A DNA stretch of 61,582 bases from an uncultured Acidobacteriia bacterium (lineage in GTDB: Bacteria > Acidobacteriota > Terriglobia > Bryobacterales > Bryobacteraceae). The notes beneath the pieces were generated by a model that worked only from the letters and a program-made list of their open reading frames with translations, was not told the DNA's origin and made no database searches. The position numbers and the translations under genes are program-made. Positions 14,975-45,702 of this stretch are shown here, in pieces (the first letter of the stretch is position 1; every line of letters begins with the position of its first letter). The DNA lies in NCBI GenBank assembly GCA_903875575.1, contig CAIQWJ010000055.1, positions 1-61,582 on the forward strand, given 5' to 3'.

Positions 14975-15034
14975 CGCCGGATGCCTCGGTTTGCGGGCGG
15001 AGGCACGCCTTTGTCCGTTCAGAAACAGGCAGCG

Positions 15035-15538: not shown

Positions 15539-15566
15539 CTCAAAAGCGTAACAGGTGCGCCGACGT

Positions 15567-27318: not shown

Positions 27319-27519
27319 CTGAGAGAAGTCAGCGCGGTTCGACTGGCCGAAAAAAGGTCCCCGCAGCGAGCGGCAAATCACGCACATCCTGGCGGATTTG
27401 ACGCAGGACAGCCGCGCAAACTATCGATTGCTGCGGCTTTCAGGGTGTAAAACCGCATTCCGCCCCTGGAACCAGGCGTGCTCTTGACTCCCGGACACAT
27501 CCAATCGGGAGTAATCATC

Positions 27520-29394
27520 ATGAGCTCTGGCGTCGCCAGCGGGACCAAGCCCCAAATCATCACCGAGCACGTCATCGAGATCATCAGCGATTCCGGCGAA
27601 GGCGCGCAAACCTGCGGCCAGATGTTTGCCGATCTCTGCGCACGGAACGGCAACGGCATCTGGACGGTTGAGATTATCCCTGCTGAGATCCAGCCGCCGG
27701 CCCGGTCGCGCGCCGGTGCCAGCGGTTACCGCATCCGCCTCGGATCCAAGCCACTGACCAATGCCGGCGACTATGCGGATCTGGTGATCGCGTTCAATGA
27801 GCAGGTACTTTACAGCCGGCTCGATTCGAAGGCTTTGCACGGCGGGACGCTGCTGTTCGTCGATAAATCATGGGCGGAAAATCCGGACCCTGGCATTCGC
27901 CGCAAGTACAACGAAGCGGTGAACGAGTTCCGCGAACGCGGCCTGGTGGTGACCGAAGTTCCGATTGAGCAGGAATGCCGGAAGTTCACCGACGACCCTC
28001 GCAAGGGCAAGAACATGTGGGTGCTGGGCATGCTCTGCGCCACTTACGATTTCGACCCCTCCGCCGTGGGCGCGGAAATTGCCAAGCGCTTCGCGCGTAA
28101 GGGCGAGGCCTCGGTGAAGCAAAACCAGGCGCTCTTCACAGACGGCTACGACTGGGCGCTGGAGAACGTCGCGCTGCGATTCCACGTGCCGCCGCACGAA
28201 TCGACCACGCCGATGGTGGTGATGAACGGCAATCAGGCGCTGGCGCTGGGGGTAATGGCCGCGGGGATTGAAGTCTGCTCCATGTATCCAATTACGCCGG
28301 CGACTTCGGCTTCCCACTTCCTGGCCTCAACGATTGAACAGACGGGCGGCATCGTACATCAGGCCGAAGATGAGATTGCTGCGATTGGTTTTGCGATCGG
28401 CTGCTCTTACGCGGGGAAGACGGCAGTGACGATCACGTCAGGCCCGGGGCTTGCCCTGAAGACTGAGTTTCTGGGCTATGCGGTGATGGCGGAAGTGCCG
28501 CTGGTGATCGTCGTGGTGCAGCGTGGCGGACCTTCCACCGGACTGCCCACCAAGATCGAACAGGGCGATTTGTTTGCGGCGCTGTATGCGTCGCCGGGCG
28601 ATGTCCCGAAGATTGTGATTGCGCCGGCCACCATTGAAGAATGTTTCCATTTCATGATCACGGCACGGAAGCTGGCGGAAGATTTCCGCGGACCGGTGAT
28701 GGTGCTTTCGGATGCCAATCTGGCGACCGGGCAGAAGCCGTTTCCGCGGCCGGAACTACGGGAAAGCTGGCTGGCGCCACCAGTGGATCAATCGCCGTGG
28801 AATCCGGAAGTGCCGCCGTTTGCGTGGGACAAGGAGACCGGGCTTTCGCGTCGGCCAATACCGGGTCAGCGCGGCGGAGAGTATGTCATCACGGGCCTGG
28901 CGCATGACGAAGAGAGCCACGTCGCCTATGATTCACAGATCAACCAGAGGTCGATGGAGATGCGCAGCCGCAAGCTGGCGGTGTTGCGCAGCGCACTGAA
29001 ACCGCCGAAGGTTTACGGCGACAACACCGGCGATTTGCTGGTAGTGGGCTGGGGTTCCACACTGGGGGCGATCGAAGAAGCGGTGGACCGCCTGCGTGCT
29101 GAGGGACTCAAGGTTTCGTCGGTGCATCTGCGGTTCCTTTCGCCGATGGAGCCGGGGCTGAAAGAGATCTTCGGACGTTTCCATAAGGTCATGACGATTG
29201 AAATCAATTACAGCGACGACGTGGGCCAGCCGTATATCACGGAAGATTCGAGACGTTATTCGCAACTGGCGCAGTTGCTGCGGGCGCAGACGCTGGTGGA
29301 TATCGATTGCTGGTCGCGCGTGCCTGGGAGTCCGCTGCCTCCGGGTGTGATTGAGGAACAACTGCGGCAGCGCCTGACGCGGAGGGAGAGTTAA
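27520..29394 (+). CDS. korA: 2-oxoacid:ferredoxin oxidoreductase, fused gamma-alpha subunit
   Basis: A 624-residue subunit (start ATG 27520). The N-terminal gamma domain (about 10-190, SDSGEGAQTCGQMFADLCAR) is fused to the alpha domain (about 225-600) with NGNQALALGVMAAGIEVCSM, YPITPATSASHFLA, GIVHQAEDEIAAIGFAIG and TSGPGLALKTEFLGYAV. This is the KorA/2-oxoglutarate:ferredoxin oxidoreductase type. It is joined to korB with no gap. Together they oxidise a 2-oxoacid, probably 2-oxoglutarate, to the acyl-CoA and reduce ferredoxin. Confidence 0.92.
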   Translation: MSSGVASGTKPQIITEHVIEIISDSGEGAQTCGQMFADLCARNGNGIWTVEIIPAEIQPPARSRAGASGYRIRLGSKPLTNAGDYADLVIAFNEQVLYSRLDSKALHGGTLLFVDKSWAENPDPGIRRKYNEAVNEFRERGLVVTEVPIEQECRKFTDDPRKGKNMWVLGMLCATYDFDPSAVGAEIAKRFARKGEASVKQNQALFTDGYDWALENVALRFHVPPHESTTPMVVMNGNQALALGVMAAGIEVCSMYPITPATSASHFLASTIEQTGGIVHQAEDEIAAIGFAIGCSYAGKTAVTITSGPGLALKTEFLGYAVMAEVPLVIVVVQRGGPSTGLPTKIEQGDLFAALYASPGDVPKIVIAPATIEECFHFMITARKLAEDFRGPVMVLSDANLATGQKPFPRPELRESWLAPPVDQSPWNPEVPPFAWDKETGLSRRPIPGQRGGEYVITGLAHDEESHVAYDSQINQRSMEMRSRKLAVLRSALKPPKVYGDNTGDLLVVGWGSTLGAIEEAVDRLRAEGLKVSSVHLRFLSPMEPGLKEIFGRFHKVMTIEINYSDDVGQPYITEDSRRYSQLAQLLRAQTLVDIDCWSRVPGSPLPPGVIEEQLRQRLTRRES

Positions 29395-30360
29395 ATGTAC
29401 GGGCTGAAGAAAGAGTGGGAGATTGAAGCTCCGGCGAGGGAGTGCACGCTCGAAGACTACGTGGGTGCCGAGGCGCGCTGGTGTCCGGGTTGCGGCGATC
29501 ACGCGGTGCTGAGCACGGTACAGCGTCTGGCGCGCGACCTGCAACTGCCTCCGGAGAAGACCGTGGTGGTTTCCGGCATTGGCTGCTCCAGCCGTTTTCC
29601 GCACTATATGAAGACGTACGGCTTCCATGGGTTGCACGGAAGAGCTCTGCCTGTGGCGGAGGGCGTGCGGAGCCGGCGACCGGATCTGGATATCTTTGTG
29701 GTGACCGGGGATGGCGACTGCTGCGCGATCGGCGCGGGGCACTGGATTCACGGGATCCGCTACAACATGGATCTGACGATCCTGCTGCTGGATAACAACG
29801 TTTACGGGCTGACGAAGAATCAGACGTCGCCGACATCGCGGGTAGGGGAGAAATCGAACACGCAGCCCCATGGCTCTTTCTTCGCGCCGCTGAACCCGAT
29901 TTCGGTGGTCCTGGGGATTGCAAACGCTTCGTTTGTGGCGCAGACGGTGGACTGGAATCCGCCGCATCTGTATGCCACGATCCGCGCGGCGCATGAGCAC
30001 AAAGGCGCATCGTTCGTGCGGGTGTTGCAACGCTGCCCGCATTTCAGTTCACATGTATTCGCGCCAGTGCAGGAAGATTTCAGCCAGATGCTGCTGATGG
30101 AGAGCGAGCGCGGGGTGAAACTGGCGGAGCCGATTCGAGGCATGTTCCCTCGCACTCTGGAGCACGATCCCCGCGATCTCAGCAAGGCGAGAGAACTGGC
30201 GGACCGAACCGACGTTTATCCGATCGGCGTGTTTTATAAGAACGACAACGCGTCGCGGTACGACACGGTGACGCAGCAGGGCCTGGAGATCACGCGCGCA
30301 GAGAAAATGGCCGCCATCAATGGGATGCTGGACCGGTTCGCGGTTCAGGGGAGGAATTAA
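29395..30360 (+). CDS. korB: 2-oxoacid:ferredoxin oxidoreductase beta subunit
   Basis: A 321-residue thiamine-pyrophosphate subunit starting right after the korA stop, with GGAGGGAG upstream. It has RWCPGCGDHAVLST (4Fe-4S/TPP region), VSGIGCSSRFPHYM, GDGDCCAIGAGHWIHG and DNNVYGLTKNQTSPTS, the Mg-TPP motif. The following gene starts two bases after its stop with its own ribosome site, so all three form one unit. Confidence 0.93.
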   Translation: MYGLKKEWEIEAPARECTLEDYVGAEARWCPGCGDHAVLSTVQRLARDLQLPPEKTVVVSGIGCSSRFPHYMKTYGFHGLHGRALPVAEGVRSRRPDLDIFVVTGDGDCCAIGAGHWIHGIRYNMDLTILLLDNNVYGLTKNQTSPTSRVGEKSNTQPHGSFFAPLNPISVVLGIANASFVAQTVDWNPPHLYATIRAAHEHKGASFVRVLQRCPHFSSHVFAPVQEDFSQMLLMESERGVKLAEPIRGMFPRTLEHDPRDLSKARELADRTDVYPIGVFYKNDNASRYDTVTQQGLEITRAEKMAAINGMLDRFAVQGRN

Positions 30361-30361
30361 C

Positions 30362-32644
30362 TTGCCCTCCAGCGCGTCGATATTGCCGGAAGTTGCGGAA
30401 CAGTATGCGGATACTAACGCCGCACCGCGTGCGGATGCGGGCGGACAAGCGCGTGCGGATGCGATCGGCCAAGCGCGTGCGGATGCGAGCGCAAATGATA
30501 CGTTGCATTTGCGGACGGTTCACATTTCAGGCCGCGGGATGGATCGAACCAAACCGCGCGGACCGCTCCGGCCATTGGAACTGGAAGGCCTTGCCGGGTT
30601 GACGCGCGTCGAGGCCGAATGGCCCGTCTATGTTGCGACAGACCTGACGTGGCAGCCTTTTGCGGCGGCGCTGGGCAGCAGGACTGACAGTCCCGACACG
30701 GTGATCCACGCATTCGACGAAGCTACGGCGCATGCCGATCTGGCGAATATCGCAGACGTGCGAGAGCGGACACTGGATACGCTGGAAGACCGGTTCGGCA
30801 GTGGAATGGGAAGTGTGCGCAAGACTTTGCCAAAGGACGGCTGGCTGGTGCCGTTCACACGTAACGCGCTGCCCCTGCTTTATGGTGCGACCGTTGCGAC
30901 AGCGAGGCGGGCCGCGAAGGAACTCTTCCTCTCAAAACTGACGCGGCAGTGCGAGCGGTTACGGGAACTGCTGCGACTTGACGACGCCCACACGGCTGCG
31001 GGGTCTTCCGCGGAGATTCTTTCGGCTTCGATGGGTTCGGAGGCGAGCTATTTCGACGCGTCGGTGCTGGCTTCGGCATTTCATCGTAAGACGGATGCCA
31101 CAAGGCAGATGGAACCGAAGCGGCGGGAGCGCGTGGAAGGCATTCTGGCAACCCTGGAACACGCGATCAAAGAGACCAGACACGAGCCCACGTTTTTCCT
31201 GTTCCACTCGGCCACGGCGCCCGCAAGTGCCACAGCTTTTGGTGGTCAGTTAAGGCAGTGCGGCGACAGCTTTGAGGCCGCGCTGGAGTTTTGCGATGAG
31301 CGACTGGAGAGATTCGCGCGGTATCTGCGTGCCCTGCGCGCGGCGAAACTCGAAATGGAAGGTGCCTTCGAACCTGCCGTCCATGAGGAATGGCTGGCGC
31401 GGTTCGACTGGCAGACAGCAGATCCTGAAGAACTGGCGGCATCGCCGGCGTTCGTGGTCTTAGAACCAGCGGAATGGCTGGCGCGGACTTCGTTTGCATC
31501 TTTCGGGCGTTTGCTGCGGTCTGGCAGGCCAGTGCAGGTATTGATTCCGCATCATGGGCTGGAGGGCCGCGATTCGGATGGCGATCTGAGAGGGTTCATG
31601 CCGGATTTTGGATATCTTTCCATCGCGCATCGCGAGGCGTTTGTGCTGCAGTCTTCGCTGGCACATCCGGAACATCTGAAGGCTGGTTTGGCTGCGGTCA
31701 GTCAATCGTTGCGCCCTGCGGTGGCTGTCATCTGTGTGCCTCCCGCGCGGGAAACTGAGGCAAGCGAAGCCCAGGCGTGGTTGGAGACGAGTTTGCTGCA
31801 TTTGACGCGCGCGTTTCCCTTGTATCGGTACGATCCGGATCGCGGTGAGAGCTGGATGGAGCGGTTTGAACTGCAGGAGGTGTCGTCGTCCGAAACGCTG
31901 ACGGCAGCTCACGCAGTGGCAGTTTCCAATGAATTTCGCGGGCAATTCCGGCTTCTTCCCGACTCCGACGGTGACGAAGAACAGATGGAATTAGCGGAAT
32001 ACCTGGAGAGGTATCGACAAGCTCCTCCCTTGGCGATACCGTATCTCCGGGTAATCGATGAGAACGGGCAGGCGCGGCGCGCGGTTGTGACCAGGGAACT
32101 GGTAAACCTCAGCCGCGACCGGCGGAAGGCGTATCGGGTATTTGAAGAACTGGCCGGAGTGAAGAACGCGCACGTGGAAGCGGCTGTCGTGAAGGCCCGG
32201 GCGGACGCGCAGGAGAAGGCAAGGGCGGAAGGTGCGACGGCGGCGATTCACCGGGTGATCGGGATGCTGGCGGACGGACAGTCGCTGGCCGGGGCTGCTA
32301 CTGTGGCGCTGACTGCGCCTTCGGCGGGTTCGCCTGTTGCTTCGCCGTCGGTGGCGAGTGCGGTACCGGTACAGAGCGCCGAGGCCGAAGCGGCTCCTGA
32401 AGATCCGTACATTGATACGTTTCTCTGTACGAGTTGCAACGACTGCATGAAAGTGAACCCGCTGGTCTTCGCGTATGACGCGAATAAGCAGGCTTACATC
32501 GGGAATGCGAAGGCGGGCACATTCGCGGAGTTGGTGAAGGCCGCGGAAGGGTGTCCGGCGAAGTGTATTCATCCGGGGACGCCCAGGGCGGACGATACGT
32601 CGGCAACATCGGCGGTACGGGCTCGGGCGACTAAGTTCAAATAA
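30362..32644 (+). CDS. PFOR-like protein without TPP site, with C-terminal ferredoxin
   Basis: A 760-residue protein, TTG start at 30362 after GGGGAGG. From about residue 90 on it aligns by eye with the last 700 residues of the PFOR at 39608-44542: RFDW (about 347) against TYFDW, SGRPVQVLI (about 388) against SGKPIKVLI, RYDPDRG (489) against RYNPDKG, ELAGVKN against SLAGVRA. The PFOR motifs GCGEKT, GDGAMYD and DTQVYSNTGGQ have no counterpart here, so TPP catalysis is not expected. The tail (about 685-740) is a ferredoxin, CTSCNDC with a later GCPAKC. Third gene of the korAB unit; probably an electron carrier or scaffold subunit. Confidence 0.75.
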   Translation: MPSSASILPEVAEQYADTNAAPRADAGGQARADAIGQARADASANDTLHLRTVHISGRGMDRTKPRGPLRPLELEGLAGLTRVEAEWPVYVATDLTWQPFAAALGSRTDSPDTVIHAFDEATAHADLANIADVRERTLDTLEDRFGSGMGSVRKTLPKDGWLVPFTRNALPLLYGATVATARRAAKELFLSKLTRQCERLRELLRLDDAHTAAGSSAEILSASMGSEASYFDASVLASAFHRKTDATRQMEPKRRERVEGILATLEHAIKETRHEPTFFLFHSATAPASATAFGGQLRQCGDSFEAALEFCDERLERFARYLRALRAAKLEMEGAFEPAVHEEWLARFDWQTADPEELAASPAFVVLEPAEWLARTSFASFGRLLRSGRPVQVLIPHHGLEGRDSDGDLRGFMPDFGYLSIAHREAFVLQSSLAHPEHLKAGLAAVSQSLRPAVAVICVPPARETEASEAQAWLETSLLHLTRAFPLYRYDPDRGESWMERFELQEVSSSETLTAAHAVAVSNEFRGQFRLLPDSDGDEEQMELAEYLERYRQAPPLAIPYLRVIDENGQARRAVVTRELVNLSRDRRKAYRVFEELAGVKNAHVEAAVVKARADAQEKARAEGATAAIHRVIGMLADGQSLAGAATVALTAPSAGSPVASPSVASAVPVQSAEAEAAPEDPYIDTFLCTSCNDCMKVNPLVFAYDANKQAYIGNAKAGTFAELVKAAEGCPAKCIHPGTPRADDTSATSAVRARATKFK
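30427..30498 (+). repeat. Three 24-base tandem repeats inside the PFOR-like gene
   Basis: GCGTGCGGATGCG recurs at 30427, 30451 and 30475, a period of 24 bases, encoding RADAGGQA, RADAIGQA and RADASAND. It lies in the poorly conserved first 50 residues and could vary in copy number. Confidence 0.8.
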
Positions 32645-34940: not shown

Positions 34941-35179
34941 AGTGTTCCCACTCCCGGCCCGGCAACAATCCGGGCTCTTTCATTCGATTTTTCGCAACTG
35001 CTGCCGTGGAGGCAGTTACCGCAGCCATGAAGCATATAGTCCAGCATGTCCCGATCTTTTGCACAGCCGCTCTTCTTTCGGGCGAAGGCCTGAATGCCCA
35101 GCCAGATCGACATCACGATGAAGAAGCCAGCGGCGGCTTTGAGAACGCTCAGCAGGGCGTCGACGATTTCGTTTCCCAT
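34937..35179 (-). CDS. Small Cys-rich membrane protein, NqrM-like
   Basis: An 80-residue protein. One membrane segment (about 10-30, VLKAAAGFFIVMSIWLGIQ) is followed by a Cys cluster, GCAKDRD and HGCGNCLHGSSC, four cysteines. This layout matches NqrM (DUF539), an iron-delivery maturation factor for Na-NQR, and the context next to rnfA, whose iron site between RnfA and RnfE would need the same service, supports it. It starts four bases after rnfA ends and overlaps FNR. Identity is inferred; no alignment was run. Confidence 0.6.
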   Translation of the reverse strand: MGNEIVDALLSVLKAAAGFFIVMSIWLGIQAFARKKSGCAKDRDMLDYMLHGCGNCLHGSSCEKSNERARIVAGPGVGTL

Positions 35180-35183
35180 GGCT

Positions 35184-35768
35184 CTATCCGGCTCCCATGC
35201 CGCCAAACCCCATGAATGCCATGGAGAGGATCGCTGCAAGTATCAGAGTCATGGCGGTGCCGCGCGCGAGGCTGGGGACATCGGAGAGAAGAACGCGTTC
35301 GCGAACCAGAGAGAGCAGCACCAGTGCCGCGCAGTAACCGCCGCTGGCCGCGATAGAGAAGACCGTGCTCTGTACGAAGTTGTAGCCGCGCGAAGTCTGG
35401 AAGATCGGCACAGCCAGGACCGCGCAGTTCGTGGTGATCAGCGGCAGGTAGACGCCCAGTTCCCGAAAGAGCGCGGGGCTCACCTTCTTAATAAACATTT
35501 CCGTCAATTGCACCGTGGCCGCAATGATCACGATGAACATGATGATGCGGAGGTACTCGGCGTGGAATCGAACCAGCAGCAGATTCGTCGCGTAAGAGAG
35601 CGCGTCACTGACAACAATGACGAACATCACGGAGACGCCCATGCGCCAGGCGGTGGCGAATTTGCCGGAGAGGCCCAGGAACGAGCACATACCGAGAAAG
35701 ACGCACAATACGAAGTTGTTGATCAGGAAGGAATCGAGGAAGATGTGGGTTAGCGACTCGTTGTTCAT
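35184..35768 (-). CDS. rnfA: Rnf complex subunit A
   Basis: A 194-residue integral membrane protein with six segments. Diagnostic strings are NNFVLCVFLGMCSFLGLS (conserved Cys) and LPLITTNCAVLAVP (second Cys), ending MAFMGFGGMGAG. These cysteines belong to the iron site shared with RnfE. Overlaps rnfE by four bases. Confidence 0.94.
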   Translation of the reverse strand: MNNESLTHIFLDSFLINNFVLCVFLGMCSFLGLSGKFATAWRMGVSVMFVIVVSDALSYATNLLLVRFHAEYLRIIMFIVIIAATVQLTEMFIKKVSPALFRELGVYLPLITTNCAVLAVPIFQTSRGYNFVQSTVFSIAASGGYCAALVLLSLVRERVLLSDVPSLARGTAMTLILAAILSMAFMGFGGMGAG

Positions 35769-36466
35769 GCTCTTGCCTCCACAGCGCCAGTGAGTTGAGG
35801 TTGCGACTGTTCCAGCGCCGCTGCCTCACGTTTCGCGCTGCGTTCCTTGATTGACGCGAAGAACAACAGCCACATGGCAAGCGTAATAAAGCCGCCGGGG
35901 GGCAGCAGGAAGAGAACCCAGGGTTCAAAGTTCGCGCCGAACAGGTGAAAGCCCAGGAAGGTCCCGGCACCGAGGATTTCGCGAACCGCACCCAGCATAG
36001 TGAGGGCGATCGTAAAACCGAAGCCCATACCGAGGCCGTCCAGCATCGATTTCAGAACCGGTTGCTTGCCAGCATACGCTTCGGCGCGTTCGAGCGTCAG
36101 GCAGTTGGAAACGATCAGCGGGATGTAGGCACCGAGCGCGACGTAAATTGGGATACTGATGGCCTTGACGAGGAAGTCCACCACCGTCACCGCCATAGCC
36201 AGGATTGCGATGTAACTCGCAATGCGCACTTGTTTCGGGATCAGTTTCCTGATCATGGAAATCAGTCCGTAAGAGACCACCATCACGAAAGTAGTGGCGA
36301 GGCCCATGGAGATGGCGTTGCGCACGCTGTTTGTGATGGCGAGCGTGGGACACATGCCCAGCACCATGACAAAGACCGGGTTCTGTTTCCACAAGCCGTT
36401 CAGGAACGGGTTGCTATCCGCGGTCATTTCGGCTTTTTCGTTGTGACAGCTGACTGCTTCGCTCAT
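35765..36466 (-). CDS. rnfE: Rnf complex subunit E
   Basis: A 233-residue membrane protein homologous to RnfA. NPVFVMVLGMCPTLAITNS carries one conserved Cys and YIPLIVSNCLTLERAEAYA the other. The following LDGLGMGFGFTIALTMLGAV and REILGAGTFLG are RnfE/NqrD hallmarks. It is one base from rnfG and overlaps rnfA. Confidence 0.94.
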   Translation of the reverse strand: MSEAVSCHNEKAEMTADSNPFLNGLWKQNPVFVMVLGMCPTLAITNSVRNAISMGLATTFVMVVSYGLISMIRKLIPKQVRIASYIAILAMAVTVVDFLVKAISIPIYVALGAYIPLIVSNCLTLERAEAYAGKQPVLKSMLDGLGMGFGFTIALTMLGAVREILGAGTFLGFHLFGANFEPWVLFLLPPGGFITLAMWLLFFASIKERSAKREAAALEQSQPQLTGAVEARA

Positions 36467-37146
36467 TACTGACCTTTCTCAATTCGGTCGAGATTCTTTC
36501 GCACCACAGGGATCACATCCTGCACACTGGTACCGATCAACTTGCCGACGGCGCGCGAAGAAATCGTTGCGCCGGAAATCGCATCGATCTCCCACGCGTT
36601 TTTCTTAGAACCGTGTTTGACGACCTTTACCGGATTGGCGGGTTTTCCGTCTACGATGGTCGCGTCGAGATACTTGAAATTCGCAAGGAAGTCCGGATCA
36701 CTCCGAGTTCGGTCGCCCAGTCCCGGCGTCTCGCGCATATCGACGACTTTGAAGCCTGTGATCGCCTGCTTCTCTGGAGAGTAGGCGTACATGGCCTGAA
36801 TGAGGTCCGCATAGCCGCGGGCACTCGATTCGATGACGATACCGAGCAGCTTTCCCGAGCCGTCATAGCCGGCAAAGACGCGCTGGCCGCCTTCTTCCAG
36901 ACCGGGCAGAATTTTCAGTTCGCCGTTCGACTGCACGCCGTAGATGATCTGCTTCGAAATGCCGGGCAGGAGTTCCGCGACTGAGTCGCGCATGATGGTT
37001 TCCTGATTCTGGCGGATGCGATCTTTCGTGACCACATTCGTGCCGACAATCAGAAGGCCGCAAATGAGCGACACCGCACCGAGCATGCGAACCATGCGGC
37101 CGCCGGGAGGCGCTGGCTGCGCGGGGGGTTGAATGAGCGTACTCAT
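36466..37146 (-). CDS. rnfG: Rnf complex subunit G
   Basis: A 226-residue protein with one N-terminal membrane segment (about 20-40, GAVSLICGLLIVGTNVV) and an extracytoplasmic flavin domain. The covalent FMN motif is ISGATISS (Thr about 193), attached by ApbE, whose gene lies at the other end of the operon. TPGLGDRTRSDPDFL is another family block. Confidence 0.92.
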   Translation of the reverse strand: MSTLIQPPAQPAPPGGRMVRMLGAVSLICGLLIVGTNVVTKDRIRQNQETIMRDSVAELLPGISKQIIYGVQSNGELKILPGLEEGGQRVFAGYDGSGKLLGIVIESSARGYADLIQAMYAYSPEKQAITGFKVVDMRETPGLGDRTRSDPDFLANFKYLDATIVDGKPANPVKVVKHGSKKNAWEIDAISGATISSRAVGKLIGTSVQDVIPVVRKNLDRIEKGQ

Positions 37147-38213
37147 TTGGCTGCCGCCTCCTTTCCGAACATTCGCTTACCCGCGCCGTAAGTGCGGGGC
37201 TGCGTAAGATTATCAATCAGAGGGGAGAGCCCATTCCCCAGCAGAATGGCGTACATGACGCCTTCCGCAAGGCCACCTTCGAAGCGAATCACCACAGTGA
37301 TCACGCCCATAAGAATGCCGTAGATCCACATGCCGCGCGGAGTGACGGGGGAGGCCACCGGGTCGGTGGCCATAAAGATGGCGCCCAGCATCAGGCCGCC
37401 GGAAAACAGTACGAAGAGCTGACTGGGGTACTTTGCCGGATTCGACAGATAGTAGCAACCGCTCAAGGCCAGCGCGCCCAGCAGCATGGCTGCGGGAATT
37501 CGCCAGTCCATCATCTTGCGGACGATCAGGTAAACACCACCGAGCAGAATCAGCAGCGCGGAGGTTTCACCGGCCGAACCGGCGCGAGTGCCAAGGAAGA
37601 GCGACCAGGTGTCCGTGGTGACGTGTTCGAACTTCTGAAGCATCAGCGGCGTCGCGCCGGTGAAGCCATCCACACGAACCTGTGCGATCCAGTCCTTCAG
37701 GGGAGCAGCCTTGAGAAACGGAATGGCCAGTGTGGTGGGGATGAATTCCGTAAAGCGGTGCATGGCCTGCGCGGGGGTGTAAGTTGTGATGGCCGAGGGG
37801 AACGCCGCCTGGAGAAAAGCGCGACCCACTAGCGCGGGATTAAAGACGTTAAAGCCGAGGCCGCCGAAGATCATCTTGCCGGGGGCGATGGCGATGAAGG
37901 CACCCACCACAGCCATCCAGAGAGGCAGCGCCGGAGGAAGTGTGAGACCGAGCAGCAGGCCCGTGATGGCCGCGCTGTAATCGCCGATGGAACTTTCCCG
38001 CTCCGCCGCCCCGCAGCAGAGATGCTCAATCAGCAGACAGGCACCGGTGGTGGTGGCGATAAGAAACGCGGCGCTGAGGCCGAACAGCCAGACGGAGTAA
38101 AACGCCATGGGCAGCAACGCGTAGACCACGTTGCGCATGATGACTTCCACCGACCGCCCGGAGTGCACGTGCGGCGCAGTGCGGACTTCAATCACAGTTG
38201 TCGCGGGACTCAT
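37143..38213 (-). CDS. rnfD: Rnf complex subunit D
   Basis: A 356-residue membrane subunit starting at ATG 38213, which overlaps rnfC; the frame is open upstream into rnfC but without family similarity. It has about eight membrane segments, the FMN-attachment motif GFTGATPL (Thr about 190), GGLGFNVFNPALVGRAFL and MATDPVASPVTPRG. It forms the ion-translocating flavin core with RnfG. Confidence 0.94.
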   Translation of the reverse strand: MSPATTVIEVRTAPHVHSGRSVEVIMRNVVYALLPMAFYSVWLFGLSAAFLIATTTGACLLIEHLCCGAAERESSIGDYSAAITGLLLGLTLPPALPLWMAVVGAFIAIAPGKMIFGGLGFNVFNPALVGRAFLQAAFPSAITTYTPAQAMHRFTEFIPTTLAIPFLKAAPLKDWIAQVRVDGFTGATPLMLQKFEHVTTDTWSLFLGTRAGSAGETSALLILLGGVYLIVRKMMDWRIPAAMLLGALALSGCYYLSNPAKYPSQLFVLFSGGLMLGAIFMATDPVASPVTPRGMWIYGILMGVITVVIRFEGGLAEGVMYAILLGNGLSPLIDNLTQPRTYGAGKRMFGKEAAAK

Positions 38214-39595
38214 GCGTGGGCTCCTTCTTTGGCCTTCAACCGTTCGCGATTCGCCCGTTCGCGATTCATCTGTTTGGCCACGCGGAAATACTGCACCAGC
38301 GGAATGTGCGAGGGGCAGACGTAGCTGCAGCAGGCGCATTCAAAGCAGTCCATCAGGTGGTAATCGGTTTCCATTTCTTCGTAGCGATCTTTCCGCGCCA
38401 GCAGGCCCAGATGCGAGGGGTTGAGGTGGATAGGGCAAACGTCCACGCAGGCCGCGCAGTGGATGCAGGCGTAAATCTGCGAGCTGGCCTTCACTTCTTT
38501 CTGTGTGAGAACCAGGATGCCGGTGACGCCTTTCGTGATCGGAATGTCGAGCGACCCGGCGGCGGCACCCATCATGGGGCCCCCCAAAATGACGGAGGAG
38601 ACATCGTCGCGGCAATCGGCCTGTTCGAGCGCGAACCGAAGCGGCGTGCCCAGAGCGACCAGATAGTTACCAGGTTTGCGAACGCCGGGCCCGGTGATGG
38701 TGACCACACGTTCGATGAGGCCCTGACGGACCGGAAGCAACTCGCCGATCTGCGCAAGAGTGGCCACGTTAAAGACAGCCAGACCAACGTCGGCGGGTAG
38801 ACCGCGCGTGGGAACTTCCAGGCCGAGAAGAACCTTTACCAGCATCTTCTCGGCGCCCTGCGGGTACTTGGCGGGAACGGATTCCACTGTGATGCCGACG
38901 TTGGCGGTACGGTTGGCATCGATGGCGTTGCGGAGAGCTTCCACCGCGTCCATCTTGTTGTCTTCCACACCGATCACGGCGTTGGCCGCGCCCAGCGCCC
39001 GCATGGCGATCCGCGCGCCATACAGCACGTCCTTCGGATACTCCAGCATCACGCGGTGGTCGGTGGTCAGGTAAGGTTCGCACTCGCAGCCGTTAACGAC
39101 CACGGTATCGATCTTCTTTCCGTCCGGAACCTTCATCTTCACGTGCGTGGGAAACGCCGCACCGCCCAGGCCGACAACGCCCGTGTTCTGGACGGCCTGC
39201 ACGATCTCTTCCGGCGTCATGTTCTCGATATCCTGCGGCGCGCCATAGAGAACTTCCTGGCTGGCCGCCTGATAAGGAGTGATGTAGATGGCCATCCCGA
39301 GATCGCCACGCGCCGTAGGAGCCAGGGCGAGTTTCGTGACGCGCCCGGTCACAGGCGAATGCATCGGCACGGACATGAACCCGCCCGCTTTCGCGATGGG
39401 TTCGCCGCGTACCACTTCCTGCCCCTCATGGACCAGGGGGATCGCAGGCGCGCCGGCATGCTGCGAAAGCGGCACCACCAGCATGGGCGCGAACGGCAGC
39501 CGACGAATGGGGAGTCCGCTGGTCAGGTCTTTGTGTTCCGGAACGTGCAGCCCGCGATCGAGATGCTTGCCGGTGAAGAATTCCAGGAGTGCCAT
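38210..39595 (-). CDS. rnfC: Rnf complex subunit C, NADH-binding
   Basis: A 461-residue cytoplasmic subunit. NADH/FMN region GLGGAAFPTHVKMKV and VNGCECEPYLTTDH; SLBB-type domain around ITGPGVRKPGNYLV; and two 4Fe-4S clusters, CIHCAACVDVCP and CFECACCSYVCP, near residues 370 and 410. It exchanges electrons with NAD. Starts 12 bases after the PFOR stop. Confidence 0.95.
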   Translation of the reverse strand: MALLEFFTGKHLDRGLHVPEHKDLTSGLPIRRLPFAPMLVVPLSQHAGAPAIPLVHEGQEVVRGEPIAKAGGFMSVPMHSPVTGRVTKLALAPTARGDLGMAIYITPYQAASQEVLYGAPQDIENMTPEEIVQAVQNTGVVGLGGAAFPTHVKMKVPDGKKIDTVVVNGCECEPYLTTDHRVMLEYPKDVLYGARIAMRALGAANAVIGVEDNKMDAVEALRNAIDANRTANVGITVESVPAKYPQGAEKMLVKVLLGLEVPTRGLPADVGLAVFNVATLAQIGELLPVRQGLIERVVTITGPGVRKPGNYLVALGTPLRFALEQADCRDDVSSVILGGPMMGAAAGSLDIPITKGVTGILVLTQKEVKASSQIYACIHCAACVDVCPIHLNPSHLGLLARKDRYEEMETDYHLMDCFECACCSYVCPSHIPLVQYFRVAKQMNRERANRERLKAKEGAHA

Positions 39596-39607: not shown

Positions 39608-42600
39608 TCAGTTGTACCTGGCTGCGCGCTTCAGCAGTTTGTCCGCGTCCTTCTCTTTGGGATCAAACGGCGTCCCCGGATGGATTATCTGCGCGGTGCA
39701 TTTCTCGGCCGCGCGAACCAAATCCTTGTAGGGCCCGCCCTTCGGATTCTTCACGTACGCGTGTTTGCTTTCGTCGTAGGCGAAGATCTTCGGGTTGATG
39801 TTGATGCACTCATCGCAGGCCGTACAGGTAGCCGAATCGATCCACGGCGCAGTGTAGTCACCCGCGGGCTGTCCAATGGCGGCGGCGGTTGGTGCCGCTG
39901 CGATGGCCGCGGGACCCGATGCGGGCAGTGCCAAACTGCCGCCGCCGCTGCCGAGAACATCGCCACTGGCGGCCATTTCCATCAGCCTTGCGGCCAGAGT
40001 TTGAGCGAATTCAGCGCGAACCTGTTCGGCGTCGGCCGTGCCCACCTGAGCACGAACGCCGGCGAGAGACTTCAGCATGCGCCAGAAGTTGCGGCGGTCT
40101 TCGCAGGATTTGACCAGCGGTTCGGCCGGAATCACGCGAATGAGCTTGTTCTTCGCGTTGACGGCCCAGATGAAGGGGAACTTCCCTTCCCTGTCGTCAG
40201 TCGTGAGGTCCAGATACTCGTGCAGCGGCACCATGTTGTCGTTCCAGGCGTCGCGCGGCACGGTGCGGAACTGTTTGCGGAAGCGGCCTTCGGTGACTGC
40301 GAAGTCGGCGAAGGTCATGGGCAGCGTCATTCTGCCCTTCTGGCCCTGTTCGTCGGTGTATTCGAGTGAATACTCTGGCCAGTCGGTTTCGAGCGACGGG
40401 TTGCCGTCGAGATCGAAGCACTCTTCCGGGAGTGTGCCCTTGTCCGGGTTGTAGCGAATCAGAGGATAAGCGCGGGATTCCACCGCCAGCTTGCTCTGGT
40501 GTTCGGCCATATCGTCCGCAATGCCCTGTTCCGGCATGCAGGGGCTGTAAATGTTGAACAGCGCAGGCCGTTTGGCGTTGAGGCCGTCGATAAAGCTTTC
40601 AATCAGATGCGTAGTATTCGAAGTGCTGCCCTGGGCGACGAAAGTGGTGCGGTGGGCCATCGCGATCAGCGCGATTTCCTTGCGCACTTCTTCCTTGCCG
40701 TGGAAAGCCTTACCGTACTGCGCCATATCCGACACCTGACCGGTAAAGCCGGAAGTACAGGCCTGGCCGCCGGTGTTGGAGTACACCTGCGTATCGAGGA
40801 TCAGAACCTTGATCGGCTTGCCGGACATCATCATGCGGGAAAGATTCTGGAAGCCGATATCGTACATCGCTCCGTCGCCACCGATGGAGACCACGGGCGG
40901 GCAAAGGTGCAGTTCATCATCACTGAACTGCTTCCAGTCGAAGTAGGTGAAGAAGTCTTCGTGCTTCTGTTTGTTGTAACCGCTCTTGAGCTCAATCTCC
41001 GCCTGCCGAATAGCCTTGAAGCCATCTGCCATGTGCGACATGTGACCTTCGAAGAGGCCCATCGCCATGGATGGCGAATCCTGGAAGAGGTTGTTCGCCC
41101 ACGGGAACGGATACGGATTGAACGGGTAAGTAGAAGCCCAGACCGAAGTGCAGCCTGTGGAGTTGATAATGCCCATGCTGGCGCGGCCGTTACGGGCAGT
41201 GCCCGAGACATACTGCCAGCGCAGATGATTGAGCTTCGCGAGCAACTGGGTGACCCAGCGGAGCCATTCGGCATCAATGGTCTTGCCGCTGCGGCGTTCG
41301 TCGAGAGTGCCGGAGAAACTGGCCAGCGTGACGTCCTGATTGTGCAGCTTGGCCAGGGTATCTTCGATGCGATGGCTGTCGCTGAGGTCCATCGTGGCCG
41401 CCAGCTTGAGGCGAATGTGCCTGTCCAACTGAGCGACAAGATCGTCAATCTTCTTTACCTGGCGTGCCACGCGAGGCTGCATGAGAGCTTCCACAGTGGC
41501 CGTGAAGAGGTGAACCACGGTCTTTTCACCGCAGCCGAGGCAGGCACCGTCGCCACCAACCATGCCTGCGTAGTTCTTCTTATCGAGCAGCAGTGTTTCG
41601 AGCGCGCCGATCTTTTCATCCAGATTTTCAATGCGGATGAATTCGGCGGGAGTGGTGGGCAGAGTTTCCCAGAATTCCCAGTCGCGGCGGAGATTCGCGA
41701 TGGAAGCAGGGGTCTGATCCACCGCCACCAGAGCATTGTCGTTACAGACCTTCACGCACTCCATACAACCTTTGCAGGTGTAGGGATTGACGGTAATGGA
41801 AAGGAGACCGCCGGAGCCCTTCGCCTTCTTTTCGCGAACGGACCAATATGGCTGCGTCACGCTGAATTTGAAATCGCCCAGAGCCTGTTTGAAGAGGCCG
41901 AACTCCTGATCTAACACCGCGCGTTCGGGCGAATCCGCCTTTACCGCAGCTTTCGCCTGGGCAATGGCGTCATCGAGCAAACGCTGCACGTCGGCTTTTT
42001 CACCGGCGGCAGCAAGGCTGTTGCGAAGCTTTTGTTCCACAGTGCGGACGGCGCGTGGTAGTTGCGTGACGACGAGGCCTTCACGCTGGAGGTTCTTGAG
42101 AGCCGTTTCGAAAATGGCGCTGACGGGATGCACCAGTCCGGGGATTGCGGTATCAGGACAAATGGTGTAGCAGGAGCCACAGGCCGTGCAGTTCTCGGGC
42201 TTCCAGACCGGATGCTGGAAGCGAACGCCCGTCATATCGCGGAAGATGCCCGTCGCGGCAGGGATGAAGCTGAGGGCGGCGAAAGGATCGGCCAGATTGT
42301 CGTTACCACGGCCGGAGATATAGAAGTTGCCTGTCTGTTCCCAGAAGCGGTGGATGTCCGTCATCTGGTCCGAACTGCTCAGACGCTGCTTGAGCATCAG
42401 AGGCAGGTCGACAGGCTTGCGGATCAGCGCACCAGCGGTAGAAAGCACCTTATTCGTGATTTCATGGATCTCATCGAACCCGCGACGCACCACGCGGATG
42501 TTGTCTTCCACAACGCGCGCGCCTTTACTCCCGAACTTGTGTTCGAGCTGCGACTTAATGGCTTCAAAGAGCTGCTGCTCTCCCAGCTTCGCCGTCTTCA

Positions 42601-44542
42601 TCACCGGCGAGGCGGCGAAGAACGCGCCCTGGAAGGCATTGCCCTGCATACGGAACTGGAGTTCGGCGTCGGTCGCTTCTTCACGCGCAATCTTGAAGGC
42701 GTCCAGATAGAAGACCTTAATCTGGTTATCGATAATCATCTGCTGGAAGCGTTCCGGAATCTGCTTCCAGACTTCGTCGGCACCATCAAGAGCGCACTGG
42801 AGGATAAAGACCCCGCCTTTTTTGAGGCCAGCCAGCGGGTTGGAGTGCTGGAAGACGTTGGGGTCGGGCGAGAGGACGACGTCGACATAGACGTAGTCGC
42901 AATTGATCGGAATGGGTTCCGGCGCGGCGGAGAGATAGTAAGTGGTGGGCTGGCCCTTCTTCTCCGAACCATACTTCGGATTGGCCTTGATGTGATAACC
43001 CATCAGGTCAAACAGAGTCACCGCAAGATTCTTACCTGTGGTTATGGCACCCCAGCCGCCGACCGAGTGCATGCGGACGGTGATGCTGTCTTTGGGGAGG
43101 AGATTTGGATTCTCACTCCCATGAACCGCGAGATCCTTGACGCCGCGATAGGAATCCGCCACCTGAATCTGATGGATTTCCTGTTTCGGAGTGAACGGCT
43201 TGTCGTGAATGAAATCGATCGAAAGATAAAAGAAGCGCTTGTGCCCGCCCTTGGGCAGCATGTTTTCGATCGCCCCGATGATCCCTTCCGGCTGTAAGTC
43301 GCGACTACCGAGACCGTAGGAGCCGGAGTAGATGGGCGGCACATCGCCCGGTCGGCTGTAGATGGCGTGATCGGGAAACGGGACAGAACCGTTGGCGAAG
43401 GCACCGTTTTCCACGCAGCGACTGACGGTGGAACGGAACTCGCGGGCGAGCGGGAGATCAACCGCCAGCGGCTGATCCACGCGTTCCAGTATCGCCACGC
43501 CCTTGCGGCCTTTGAGAAGGGCGCCGAGCAGATCGCCCGGGAATGGCCGGAACATAGTGAGATTGATGACGCCGACTTTGATCTTGCGCGTGGCGCGCAG
43601 ATAATCCGCCACCGCTTCCGCAGTGACGATCATGCTGCCCTGCCCCGCGATCACGTACTCCGCGTCCTCCATCTTGTAAGTGGAGACGCGCTGGTAACGG
43701 CGACCGGTCAGTTCGTAAAACTCGTTCATCGCGTTATTCGCGAGGTCTGCAATGTGCGCAAAGAAGAACGGCCGCTGCGCGGCGACGCTCTGCATATACG
43801 CGTCCTGATTCTGCACGGTGCCGATCATGACCGGGTTGTCCACCGTCCAAAGCTCCGGAATCCTGCGGCGCTTGTTACCGAAGAGGATGCGCTGAGCGGG
43901 CGTCGGCGTGTCGATGATGTCGTCCGGACGGCCGAGATACTGAGCGATCAGTTCGCGCTCCGGCACCATCATGGATTCGATGAGGTGCGTGGTGAGAAAA
44001 CCATCCTGCGCGCAGATGCCCGGCGTCAGCGCCAGTTCCGCAATGCGGTGCGAAATGATGTTGAGATCGCAGGCTTCCTGGCCGCTCTTGCCGAACAACT
44101 GGAAGAAGCCGGTGTCGTCAATGCAGTGATAATCGTCGTGCCCGGCATGGACGTTGAGCGTCGATTTCGTCATCGCGCGGCAGCCCATATTCAGCACGTA
44201 CGTCAGCCGCTTGCCGACCGCCGCATAGAGCGATTCGTGCATATAAGCGATGCCCTGGCCCGAAGAGAAATTCGCGGCGCGCAGGCCCGTCATGGAAAGA
44301 CCGGCAGTCACAGCAGCCGCGGCATGTTCGCCTTCCGGTTCGATGAAGATCAGCGGTCGGCCGGAGATATTGATATGGCCTTTGGCCGATTCTTCAGCCC
44401 AGTATTCGCCCATCTGCGTGGACGGCGTGATGGGGTATGCGCCGGCGGCGTCGGTGGACTCCCGCTCGCACATGATGACGGCGGTGTTGCCGTCAACTGC
44501 CTGCCGGATTCCGGGGTAACGGAATTCACGTTGTGTGCTCAT
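39608..44542 (-). CDS. nifJ: Pyruvate:ferredoxin (flavodoxin) oxidoreductase with extra C-terminal ferredoxin
   Basis: A 1644-residue single-chain PFOR, longer than the usual 1170-1200. It has domain I with GAYPITPSTQMGEYWAE, the ferredoxin domain with CTACGSCYTICP (about 782) and CKGCMECVKVC (about 924), the GACLGCGEKT region (about 996), and the TPP site GGDGAMYDIGF (about 1221) with DTQVYSNTGGQ. After about 1360 comes an extra region ending in CTACDEC (about 1571) and HPGTP, a third ferredoxin module. It lies inside the rnf operon between rnfB and rnfC. It converts pyruvate and CoA to acetyl-CoA and reduces ferredoxin. Confidence 0.94.
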   Translation of the reverse strand: MSTQREFRYPGIRQAVDGNTAVIMCERESTDAAGAYPITPSTQMGEYWAEESAKGHINISGRPLIFIEPEGEHAAAAVTAGLSMTGLRAANFSSGQGIAYMHESLYAAVGKRLTYVLNMGCRAMTKSTLNVHAGHDDYHCIDDTGFFQLFGKSGQEACDLNIISHRIAELALTPGICAQDGFLTTHLIESMMVPERELIAQYLGRPDDIIDTPTPAQRILFGNKRRRIPELWTVDNPVMIGTVQNQDAYMQSVAAQRPFFFAHIADLANNAMNEFYELTGRRYQRVSTYKMEDAEYVIAGQGSMIVTAEAVADYLRATRKIKVGVINLTMFRPFPGDLLGALLKGRKGVAILERVDQPLAVDLPLAREFRSTVSRCVENGAFANGSVPFPDHAIYSRPGDVPPIYSGSYGLGSRDLQPEGIIGAIENMLPKGGHKRFFYLSIDFIHDKPFTPKQEIHQIQVADSYRGVKDLAVHGSENPNLLPKDSITVRMHSVGGWGAITTGKNLAVTLFDLMGYHIKANPKYGSEKKGQPTTYYLSAAPEPIPINCDYVYVDVVLSPDPNVFQHSNPLAGLKKGGVFILQCALDGADEVWKQIPERFQQMIIDNQIKVFYLDAFKIAREEATDAELQFRMQGNAFQGAFFAASPVMKTAKLGEQQLFEAIKSQLEHKFGSKGARVVEDNIRVVRRGFDEIHEITNKVLSTAGALIRKPVDLPLMLKQRLSSSDQMTDIHRFWEQTGNFYISGRGNDNLADPFAALSFIPAATGIFRDMTGVRFQHPVWKPENCTACGSCYTICPDTAIPGLVHPVSAIFETALKNLQREGLVVTQLPRAVRTVEQKLRNSLAAAGEKADVQRLLDDAIAQAKAAVKADSPERAVLDQEFGLFKQALGDFKFSVTQPYWSVREKKAKGSGGLLSITVNPYTCKGCMECVKVCNDNALVAVDQTPASIANLRRDWEFWETLPTTPAEFIRIENLDEKIGALETLLLDKKNYAGMVGGDGACLGCGEKTVVHLFTATVEALMQPRVARQVKKIDDLVAQLDRHIRLKLAATMDLSDSHRIEDTLAKLHNQDVTLASFSGTLDERRSGKTIDAEWLRWVTQLLAKLNHLRWQYVSGTARNGRASMGIINSTGCTSVWASTYPFNPYPFPWANNLFQDSPSMAMGLFEGHMSHMADGFKAIRQAEIELKSGYNKQKHEDFFTYFDWKQFSDDELHLCPPVVSIGGDGAMYDIGFQNLSRMMMSGKPIKVLILDTQVYSNTGGQACTSGFTGQVSDMAQYGKAFHGKEEVRKEIALIAMAHRTTFVAQGSTSNTTHLIESFIDGLNAKRPALFNIYSPCMPEQGIADDMAEHQSKLAVESRAYPLIRYNPDKGTLPEECFDLDGNPSLETDWPEYSLEYTDEQGQKGRMTLPMTFADFAVTEGRFRKQFRTVPRDAWNDNMVPLHEYLDLTTDDREGKFPFIWAVNAKNKLIRVIPAEPLVKSCEDRRNFWRMLKSLAGVRAQVGTADAEQVRAEFAQTLAARLMEMAASGDVLGSGGGSLALPASGPAAIAAAPTAAAIGQPAGDYTAPWIDSATCTACDECININPKIFAYDESKHAYVKNPKGGPYKDLVRAAEKCTAQIIHPGTPFDPKEKDADKLLKRAARYN

Positions 44543-44551
44543 GCTATCTGT

Positions 44552-45484
44552 TCACCTCGACCTTTCGGTCATTGAATTGTGACTGCTTCGCGCTGCCGAA
44601 TTCGGCAGTTCCGCGAGTTCGACCGGGCGGGGGGACTTGCGCGTGATCTTTTTCGCGTCGAGTCCTTTCACCGGTCCGCGCTTCTCGTCGATCCAGACGA
44701 TGGCACCTGTGGGGCATCTTTGAGTGGGAACGGCACTAGCCTTGCTGTTCCGTGAGTAATCGACGACCGCGAGATTATTGACGATAGTGACAAGCCCGGC
44801 GGGGGCATCGGCGGCACAGCGTCCGCAGGCCGTGCAGGCCACTTCACATTCGGCTGCGGCGAGCTCGCCGTTCAGCAGATTCTTACAGGAAACCCAGAGG
44901 CGATGACTCACACCATGCAGTGAAAACAGGACCTTGGGGCAGATATCGACGCAATCGCCGCAGGCTGTGCATTTGCTTTCCGTGACGACCGGGAGCCCGT
45001 TGACGTCCATGTCGATGGCGTGGAATTCGCAGACGCGTTCGCAATCGCCCAAGCCGAGGCAACCCCAGCTACAACCTTTTCCACCACCCGAAACCAGCGC
45101 CGCCGCGCGGCAGGATTCCAGCCCGGCGTAATGCGACTGCTGCACCGCGACATTTGTGCCACCCGCGCAGGCGAGCCGCGCCACCCGCTTCTCATGCGAC
45201 CCGGCATCCACTTGTAAGAAGGCCGCGATCTTCGCGATGCCGGAAGGGCTGTTCACCGTGCAGCGTCCGGGCGAGATCTCGCCGTGAACGGCCTTTTCGG
45301 CAAACGCCCTGCAACCGGGGCAGCCACAGGCTCCGCAGTTCGCGAGCGGCAACATCTGCTCCACCTGATCGATACGAGGATCTTCCCAGACGTAGAACTT
45401 TTTGTCGGCGAAAGCGAGAACAATAGCGAGGATAACGCCGAGCCCACCCATTAAGGCGGCAGCGATCAAAAACTCATTGAGCAT
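44552..45484 (-). CDS. rnfB: Rnf complex subunit B, ferredoxin-accepting
   Basis: A 310-residue protein, start ATG 45484. One membrane helix (about 3-26), a 4Fe-4S cluster with CGACGCPGCRAFAE, then CTACGDCVDICP and CTACGRCAADAP ferredoxin clusters. It takes electrons from ferredoxin for the Rnf pump. The first gene of the minus operon; the promoter should lie in 45485-45700, facing apbE. PFOR starts nine bases beyond its stop. Confidence 0.93.
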   Translation of the reverse strand: MLNEFLIAAALMGGLGVILAIVLAFADKKFYVWEDPRIDQVEQMLPLANCGACGCPGCRAFAEKAVHGEISPGRCTVNSPSGIAKIAAFLQVDAGSHEKRVARLACAGGTNVAVQQSHYAGLESCRAAALVSGGGKGCSWGCLGLGDCERVCEFHAIDMDVNGLPVVTESKCTACGDCVDICPKVLFSLHGVSHRLWVSCKNLLNGELAAAECEVACTACGRCAADAPAGLVTIVNNLAVVDYSRNSKASAVPTQRCPTGAIVWIDEKRGPVKGLDAKKITRKSPRPVELAELPNSAARSSHNSMTERSR

Positions 45485-45702
45485 TTCCCGGACCCTTTTT
45501 CCTTGTGTTGAGCAGAGACGCAGATGTTTGCGCCATTCCACACAGAGCGCTGCGTGATTTGGAGCAGGGCCGCCCGTATGTCGTATTCAGCCCTTTTGAT
45601 TGGTGCGCCAGTGATCATTTCCTACGCCAATTGAGCAAGCCTTAGGCCATTTAGCGGAGGGCAGTATTTCGGGTTGTGGCTACCGACTTGCTTTCGTTAA
45701 AA

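Follow-up and report, generated by a model that had tools for sequence, protein, structure and literature searches.

What role could a relative of pyruvate:ferredoxin oxidoreductase (PFOR) that lacks the thiamine site play directly behind the genes of a two-subunit 2-oxoacid:ferredoxin oxidoreductase (OFOR)? The question is raised by korX, a gene at positions 30362 to 32644 of a stretch of 61,582 nucleotides (contig CAIQWJ010000055.1, assembly GCA_903875575.1; hereafter the window) from an uncultured Acidobacteriia bacterium of the family Bryobacteraceae, phylum Acidobacteriota. There, korA, korB and korX form a single plus-strand unit, with korA and korB immediately upstream of korX. An earlier note on this DNA had inferred that the third gene encodes a structural electron-transfer subunit or adaptor, evolved from a PFOR by loss of thiamine chemistry. 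The comparisons described here suggest, with a probability of about 0.62, that KorX, a PFOR descendant without catalytic activity, serves one KorAB subfamily as a dedicated subunit for docking and electron transfer, which would feed a fixed outlet, mostly the Rnf complex.

The genes and protein regions concerned are the following.

27478..29394, plus strand: korA, fused gamma-alpha subunit of 2-oxoacid:ferredoxin oxidoreductase, 638 residues as listed (the real start may be more internal than the listed start at 27478); TIGR03710 at 518 bits (cut-off 483), Pfam POR_N, POR and PFOR_II
29395..30360, plus strand: korB, thiamine-binding beta subunit, 321 residues; aligned to 6n2n_B (E 1.6e-49)
30362..32644, plus strand: korX, PFOR-derived protein without thiamine site, 760 residues; reading frame open from 30320
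30833..32161, plus strand: predicted pseudo thiamine-binding domain of KorX and the arm after it (about residues 158-600), from hhalign to intact PFORs, the AlphaFold model and Foldseek
32276..32407, plus strand: low-confidence Ala/Pro-rich linker of KorX (residues 639-682), with a predicted local distance difference test (pLDDT) below 50
32411..32572, plus strand: C-terminal single-cluster ferredoxin domain of KorX (residues 684-737), from Fer4_13 and the invariant columns of 12 sequences

Two starts are candidates for korX, a TTG at 30362, 1 base past the korB stop and preceded by the Shine-Dalgarno-like GGGGAGGAA, and an ATG at 30320 inside korB. With regard to the enzyme itself, KorB reaches 239 bits against TIGR02177, below the cut-off of 262, and its alignment to the crystallised beta chain of the Magnetococcus 2-oxoglutarate:ferredoxin oxidoreductase (OGOR) shows that the GDGD motif and the cluster cysteines are retained. 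The solved structures nearest to the window KorAB are OGOR and broad 2-oxoacid enzymes, and it is probably a 2-oxoglutarate-type oxidoreductase.

A PFOR relative without the thiamine motifs

The window encodes an intact PFOR on its other strand, and BLASTP aligns KorX with it at 29% over 484 columns (E 6e-53), KorX residues 316-755 (in a 774-residue numbering) being matched to PFOR residues 1155-1625 with the FDW, SGRPVQVLI, RYDPDRG and ELAGV blocks in order. A profile-profile comparison with 12 intact PFORs, ten of which were represented by their C-terminal parts, extends the match to KorX residues 158-759 (760-residue numbering) and PFOR residues 997-1644 (605 columns, E 8e-84). The third gene of the unit is, as the earlier note had it, a PFOR relative sharing these four blocks in the same order; the homologous stretch, given there as the C-terminal 700 residues, covers about 600, the C-terminal two fifths of the in-window PFOR.

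Opposite GDGACLGCGEKT, GGDGAMYD and NTGGQ of PFOR, KorX carries KDGWLVPFTRNA, LEPAEWLAR and a gapped stretch. The absence of GCGEKT, GDGAMYD and NTGGQ, first noticed in the window protein, extends to its homologues in an alignment of 36 KorX, 17 KorY and 13 PFOR sequences, KorY being a second PFOR-like protein of many korX operons (both korX and korY are names coined in the present analysis). In the columns of GDGAMYD and NTGGQ, GDGA and NTGGQ are both missing from all 36 KorX and all 17 KorY sequences and both present in all 13 PFORs, and no KorX homologue with an intact thiamine motif was found among the 36. No KorX retains GCGEKT, which is either replaced or gapped. Every KorY has lost the cysteine of this motif, and some KorY (for example those of L057 and L066) retain the first GDGA of GDGACLGCGEKT without its cysteines. 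In a likelihood tree computed without an outgroup, all KorX sequences lie on one side of a single branch (support 100/100), as do the 17 KorY sequences (100/99). The motif columns and the single clade bear out the origin that had been proposed, and KorX is descended from a PFOR and has lost the thiamine site.

The C-terminal ferredoxin has been retained, as had also been stated. It matches Pfam Fer4_13 (E 1.6e-7) over the family cut-off, with cysteines 689, 692, 695 and 731 and an additional Cys 735; the four ferredoxin cysteines are kept in 35 of the 36 KorX sequences, that of L066 being interrupted by a stop, and the ferredoxin domain is the most conserved portion of the protein. At E<=1, Pfam finds Fer4 families alone in KorX, with no flavin domain, two-cluster domain or POR domains, and no NCBIfam family is matched at E up to 1, including the PorD/KorD ferredoxin model (TIGR02179 or relatives). 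KorX is also unmatched by the PFOR model TIGR02176, for which the cut-off is 911 bits and the intact in-window PFOR itself, with 1644 residues longer than the 1167 positions of the model, reaches 418. KorX is a real conserved family, of which the window member has no NCBIfam name.

AlphaFold models of the KorX of the window and of L009, a locus in a gammaproteobacterial genome, have a pLDDT of 70 and 67, respectively, and a predicted template modelling score of 0.63 each, the L009 fold prediction being no better than that of the window. In Foldseek searches of the PDB, each of the two models gave 24 matches at E<=0.001, all of which were PFOR or beta chains of PFOR or oxalate oxidoreductase, mostly chains of a single Moorella PFOR. 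The template modelling scores by query length are low (0.17-0.26), so that the fold of KorX is backed in kind and not in detail. A sequence search of the PDB with KorX gives ferredoxin I as the sole convincing match, and the link between KorX and PFOR thus stands on the in-window PFOR, the profile and the fold comparison. In both predictions the fold is of the PFOR/OFOR-beta type, and neither yielded a protein without a PFOR-type thiamine fold, the outcome that would have spoken against the earlier note; the comparison by profile and structure proposed there comes out in its favour.

The ratio of nonsynonymous to synonymous substitution rates (dN/dS) is 0.20-0.30 across five pairs of KorX genes, of which three were drawn from a single set of three loci; one more pair was saturated. 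These values indicate that korX is under purifying selection. The length of KorX varies, with 1285-1350 residues in L045-L049 and 619-972 elsewhere, except in L051, where the korX reading frame opens within korB. In the N-terminal part of the L045 protein, the sole long KorX scanned, PFOR domains I and II are weakly matched. In L066 (8905-14003) korA is split over three open reading frames and korX is stopped, the remaining operon genes appearing whole, which suggests a broken or badly sequenced copy.

Association with one KorAB subfamily

The neighbourhood of korX was surveyed from korB. In 247 Acidobacteriota genomes, the window KorB as query (E<=1e-60) gave 65 korB places; korX is next to korB in all 13 that score at least 366 bits, and the KorX profile matches at none of the 52 that score at most 256 bits (best four candidates per genome scored). 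Similarly, in 369 gammaproteobacterial genomes, the L009 KorB as query gave 27 korB places, with korX in all 12 at 379 bits or above and in none of the 15 at 241 bits or below (best two candidates per genome scored). With four or two candidates scored per genome, these absences are not proof. In 20 of the 67 unlinked places (12 + 8) that were read, korX, korY, rnfB and PFOR were found in none of the stretches. Furthermore, when 378 genomes of the wider phylum were searched at E 1e-60, with the best two candidates per genome scored, no KorX was detected outside the genome G252, the two other matches having open frames of PFOR length.

The enzymes of the two groups differ. Between the linked and the unlinked group the mean identity is 34% for KorA and 37% for KorB, against 64% and 59% within the linked group, and 32 linked rows are separated from 20 control rows by 7 fixed differences in KorB and 29 in KorA. 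In 32 of 34 loci, korX overlaps the end of korB or starts no more than 120 bp beyond it; the exceptions are L012, with 2.3 kb and two other reading frames in between, and L009, with a gap of 335 bp. Moreover, KorX distances correlate with those of KorA (0.89) and KorB (0.90) over 32 loci, linked rows only. By these surveys, KorX is the companion of one KorAB subfamily, in two phyla. A regular position next to korAB, which the earlier note had raised, is strict within this subfamily and does not hold for korAB at large.

A second dead PFOR in operons with rnf genes

The 36 KorX loci comprise 20 with rnfB and korY, five with an Nfn-like gene pair, nine of the window type, L012 and L047; outside this set are L013, with the end of korX only, and L015-L026 and L043, which are second copies of places already counted. 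The gene order korA-korB-korX-rnfB-korY is thus found in 20 of the 36. The product of korY is a homologue of whole PFOR without the thiamine motifs and without the ferredoxin tail. Both CxxCxxCxxxC motifs are kept in 17 of 19 KorY, with none in L048 and one in the contig-cut L058; these two (the former of 635 residues) belong to the list of 19 and stand outside the alignment and the tree, and korY of L046, with only its first part on the contig, was assigned by position. In 15 of the 20 loci rnfC follows korY, and of the other five, L046, L058 and L062 stop at a contig edge. The gene rnfD was found in 11 of these loci, and a run of rnfC, D, G, E and A in L049, L057 and L059; in L057 and L059 the stretch ends inside the last gene of this run. 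The genome of L012 carries rnfB and korY together on a separate contig, and the contig of L047 ends at korX.

A corresponding set of genes with a live PFOR lies on the minus strand of the window.

45676-46749, strand not stated: ApbE-like flavin mononucleotide transferase adjoining rnfB, under its own model's cut-off
44552..45541, minus strand: rnfB-like; RnfB models match below curated cut-offs
39608..44542, minus strand: intact long PFOR with C-terminal ferredoxin, between rnfB and rnfC, 1644 residues; GCGEKT, GDGAMYD and NTGGQ present
38210..39595, minus strand: rnfC, TIGR01945 at 489 bits (cut-off 246)
37143..38339, minus strand: rnfD, TIGR01946 at 318 bits (cut-off 207)
36466..37146, minus strand: rnfG-like, TIGR01947 at 87 bits (cut-off 102)
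35765..36466, minus strand: rnfE, TIGR01948 at 223 bits (cut-off 213)
35184..35768, minus strand: rnfA-like, TIGR01943 at 218 bits (cut-off 229)
34937-35239, minus strand: 100-residue cysteine-containing protein with a hydrophobic stretch; no Pfam or NCBIfam match
34077-34940, minus strand: ferredoxin-NADP-reductase-like (PetH/BoxA-like), at the operon end

The intact order rnfB-PFOR-rnfC-D-G-E-A is found in the window and in L068, most other PFOR loci being cut before rnfB. Set beside the kor operons, this parallel order shows that the dead PFOR occupies the place of the live one. The RnfC tree, obtained by a quick method, splits by partner on one branch (SH-aLRT support 100). On one side stand the 15 kor-linked rows, 5 from Acidobacteriota and 10 gammaproteobacterial; on the other stand the 17 PFOR-linked rows, which comprise the window and 15 distinct places in Gammaproteobacteria, one of which is represented twice. 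With rnf genes and a second dead PFOR in the operon as the commonest context found, a part that couples KorAB to its outlet becomes a likelier mechanism than the bare adaptor of the earlier note.

Two groups of loci depart from this arrangement. The first consists of L053-L056 and L069, which are without rnfB and korY and have a PyrK-like and GltD-like pair upstream of korA, presumably encoding an NAD(P)H enzyme of the Nfn type; no RnfB was found in their genomes at E 1e-30. The second is the window type (the window with L003-L008, L011 and L014, of which L003 and L004, also Acidobacteriia/Bryobacteraceae, are its nearest relatives), where korABX occurs without korY, L006 offering just 0.9 kb downstream. 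Each of the eight genomes of this type that were searched has exactly one RnfB at E 1e-30, which in six of them shares a contig with PFOR. In the window's genome it is the rnfB-like gene listed above, the product of which is 57% identical to RnfB of the L009 korX operon. In L005 an rnfB (14656-15570) lies 5 kb beyond korX, the genome's PFOR match being on a different contig. Since the window clade is nested, in the tree without outgroup, among Acidobacteriota KorX having rnfB and korY, these two genes would have been lost in its lineage; KorY and the kor-type Rnf were probably lost there. The intact PFOR of the window represents the proposed ancestor type of KorX and is a possible partner.

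Additional genes accompany korX in certain gammaproteobacterial operons. Genes for a TfrA/SdhA-like flavoprotein and a NuoF-like protein lie upstream of korA in L009 (1040-4040), L010, L060, L061, L062, L064, L065 and L066, possibly as an NADH-linked fumarate reductase within the kor operon, and sucCD is found between korY and rnfC in four gammaproteobacterial loci. ApbE-like genes also occur near korX in L005, L011 and L013 and near the kor-type operon in L049.

A proposed route for the electrons

In the proposed mechanism, KorAB would perform the thiamine chemistry and electrons would gather on the cluster of KorB. KorX may dock on KorAB through its pseudo-PFOR body, and its tethered ferredoxin would accept the electrons and deliver them to a fixed outlet, not to free ferredoxin. 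In the fullest form, KorX and KorY, the latter with two [4Fe-4S] motifs and no ferredoxin tail, may mimic a PFOR dimer between RnfB and RnfC. The acceptor could be Rnf or an Nfn-like enzyme. For the window's lineage, the proposed acceptor of the electrons of KorX is the PFOR-type Rnf that remains there, the genes of which lie on the other strand at a distance of 2.5-13 kb. Running forward, oxidation of 2-oxoglutarate would drive NAD+ reduction and ion pumping; running backward, the ion gradient would drive carboxylation. Oxidation of 2-oxoglutarate is far more reducing than NAD+, and coupling would therefore conserve energy.

A more complete picture, offered tentatively and at somewhat under even odds, is that of a 2-oxoglutarate oxidoreductase hard-wired to Rnf via a KorX-KorY dead-PFOR heterodimer, which would be energy-conserving, reversible and NAD-linked. 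The PFOR body of an older RnfB-PFOR-RnfC machine would have been kept as wiring and its catalytic input exchanged, and the window KorX would plug KorAB straight into a living PFOR-Rnf. If so, the excess energy usually given away at one step of the tricarboxylic acid (TCA) cycle would serve to pump ions, or the step could be run in reverse for carbon fixation; dead enzymes would have been reused as electron wiring, and the fate of the electrons from some KorAB enzymes would have a concrete explanation.

Several points weigh against a dedicated coupling subunit. The window has neither korY nor a kor-type Rnf, which makes its wiring the least certain, and no rnfC occurs in the 4.2 kb (L048) and 3.6 kb (L065) read beyond korY. 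The AlphaFold models are middling, with the ferredoxin of the L009 model below a pLDDT of 50. The absence of korX at the other 47 unlinked places depends on searches scoring the best four or two candidates per genome, and in G599, a gammaproteobacterial genome with korX at the edge of a contig, no KorB was found at E 1e-60. The correlation of KorX distances with those of KorA and KorB contains shared ancestry, and gene linkage can stem from shared regulation alone. Lastly, the E1 component of 2-oxoglutarate dehydrogenase (TIGR00239) is present in 26 of 35 korX genomes, so that KorABX is no simple replacement for that enzyme; as a general rule, the reading of KorABX as its sole replacement was rejected on this count.

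The same distribution bears on the direction of the reaction, and both directions may occur. Reverse running, which is compatible with a coupling role of KorX, would have Rnf spend the ion gradient to move electrons from NADH via KorY and KorX to KorAB, which would carboxylate succinyl-CoA in a reductive TCA branch; that the system runs mainly in this direction is less likely than not. The TfrA/SdhA-like and NuoF-like genes (eight loci) and sucCD (four loci) spell out a route from fumarate through succinate and succinyl-CoA to 2-oxoglutarate and fit such a branch in Gammaproteobacteria. For sulfur oxidisers, one paper places korAB in the reductive TCA cycle (PMC4853749), and another considers it for a catabolic or reversed oxidative cycle (PMC6315080). 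However, none of these accessory genes was found in the Acidobacteriota loci read. E1 was not found in the window's genome and eight others (three of these eight being just 1.6-1.9 Mb, and completeness being given for Acidobacteriota only), and its absence from the window and its two nearest relatives fits and favours the oxidative direction there.

Less probable still is that KorX is merely a tethered private ferredoxin of KorAB, which would release its electrons to soluble acceptors, the Rnf neighbours reflecting shared metabolism. The conservation of the ferredoxin domain above all other parts of KorX would agree with this, as would the five loci without Rnf and the lack of a same-strand outlet beside korX in the window, whose Rnf genes are on the opposite strand, from 35184 on and 2.5 kb past korX. 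Notwithstanding, this account leaves unexplained the retention of a dead PFOR body of more than 400 residues, the fact that korY, devoid of thiamine motifs, takes the place of PFOR between rnfB and rnfC, and the two partner-sorted RnfC clades. A role outside redox chemistry, as an assembly factor, oxygen shield or regulator of KorAB, is improbable; dead enzyme bodies often regulate, as is generally known, but the four ferredoxin cysteines are retained in 35 of 36 KorX. That KorX is a functionless, decaying PFOR remnant, as its widely varying lengths might suggest, was rejected on its dN/dS and is next to impossible given also its occurrence in two phyla and its strict linkage.

Comparison with known systems

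KorX shares with PFOR (6cin, 1b0p, 7plm; TIGR02176) a homologous thiamine domain, the C-terminal arm and the fold class, and with the long in-window PFOR also a C-terminal ferredoxin; it differs in being without the thiamine motifs and the GDGACLGCGEKT cysteines, and the window KorX has no match to a two-cluster or POR domain. KorA and KorB of the window are of the same kind as the two-subunit OGOR/OFOR enzymes (Magnetococcus 6n2n, Sulfolobus 5b46/5b48). However, korX follows one subfamily of these and was found at none of the 20 other korAB loci read (the Magnetococcus and Sulfolobus loci not being among them).

The KorABC 2-oxoglutarate:NADP+ oxidoreductase of Azoarcus and Thauera has as third subunit a flavoprotein with an FAD and NADP binding domain. 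It resembles the present system in having a third gene beside korAB as a dedicated outlet, whereas KorX has no flavin domain; for this reason, identification of KorX as an Azoarcus-like flavoprotein KorC was discarded. Closer to KorABC are the Nfn-like loci L053-L056 and L069, which carry KorX in addition. In four-subunit OGOR (KorABCD, Helicobacter OorDABC) the gene set likewise includes a ferredoxin-type subunit besides the catalytic ones. This subunit, KorD, is a small ferredoxin with two clusters, whereas KorX matches no PorD/KorD model and carries one cluster on a pseudo-PFOR body. With regard to the Rnf complex (RnfABCDGE), the fullest kor operons hold rnfB, C, D, G, E and A beside korABX and korY.

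In the open-licence PMC literature, as far as its texts were available and with subscription papers and supplements outside the scope, no description was found of KorX, KorY, a korAB-rnf operon, or a dead-PFOR or KorAB input to Rnf. PFOR-like genes beside korAB should be checked for thiamine motifs before they are counted as pyruvate enzymes. In the accessible part of an Endoriftia transcriptome study, a 'PFOR-like' gene decreases together with korAB(3) under sulfide limitation (PMC11636981); this may be the pair described here, with korX or korY as the PFOR-like gene, which is not treated as a dead PFOR in that part. In other papers, a dimeric korAB is placed beside TCA genes in a tubeworm symbiont (PMC6315080), korAB and Rnf are mentioned separately (PMC4914600), KorAB is described in aromatic degradation (PMC9973337), and Thiomargarita korAB is given under three consecutive locus numbers, with two rnf copies mentioned (PMC4853749).

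A further PFOR was observed in the genome of L009, where the stretch L070 (2827-10676) encodes a divergent PFOR of 1666 residues beside a GltD-like protein of 951 residues, not rnfC, and this pair lies about 8 kb ahead of korA.

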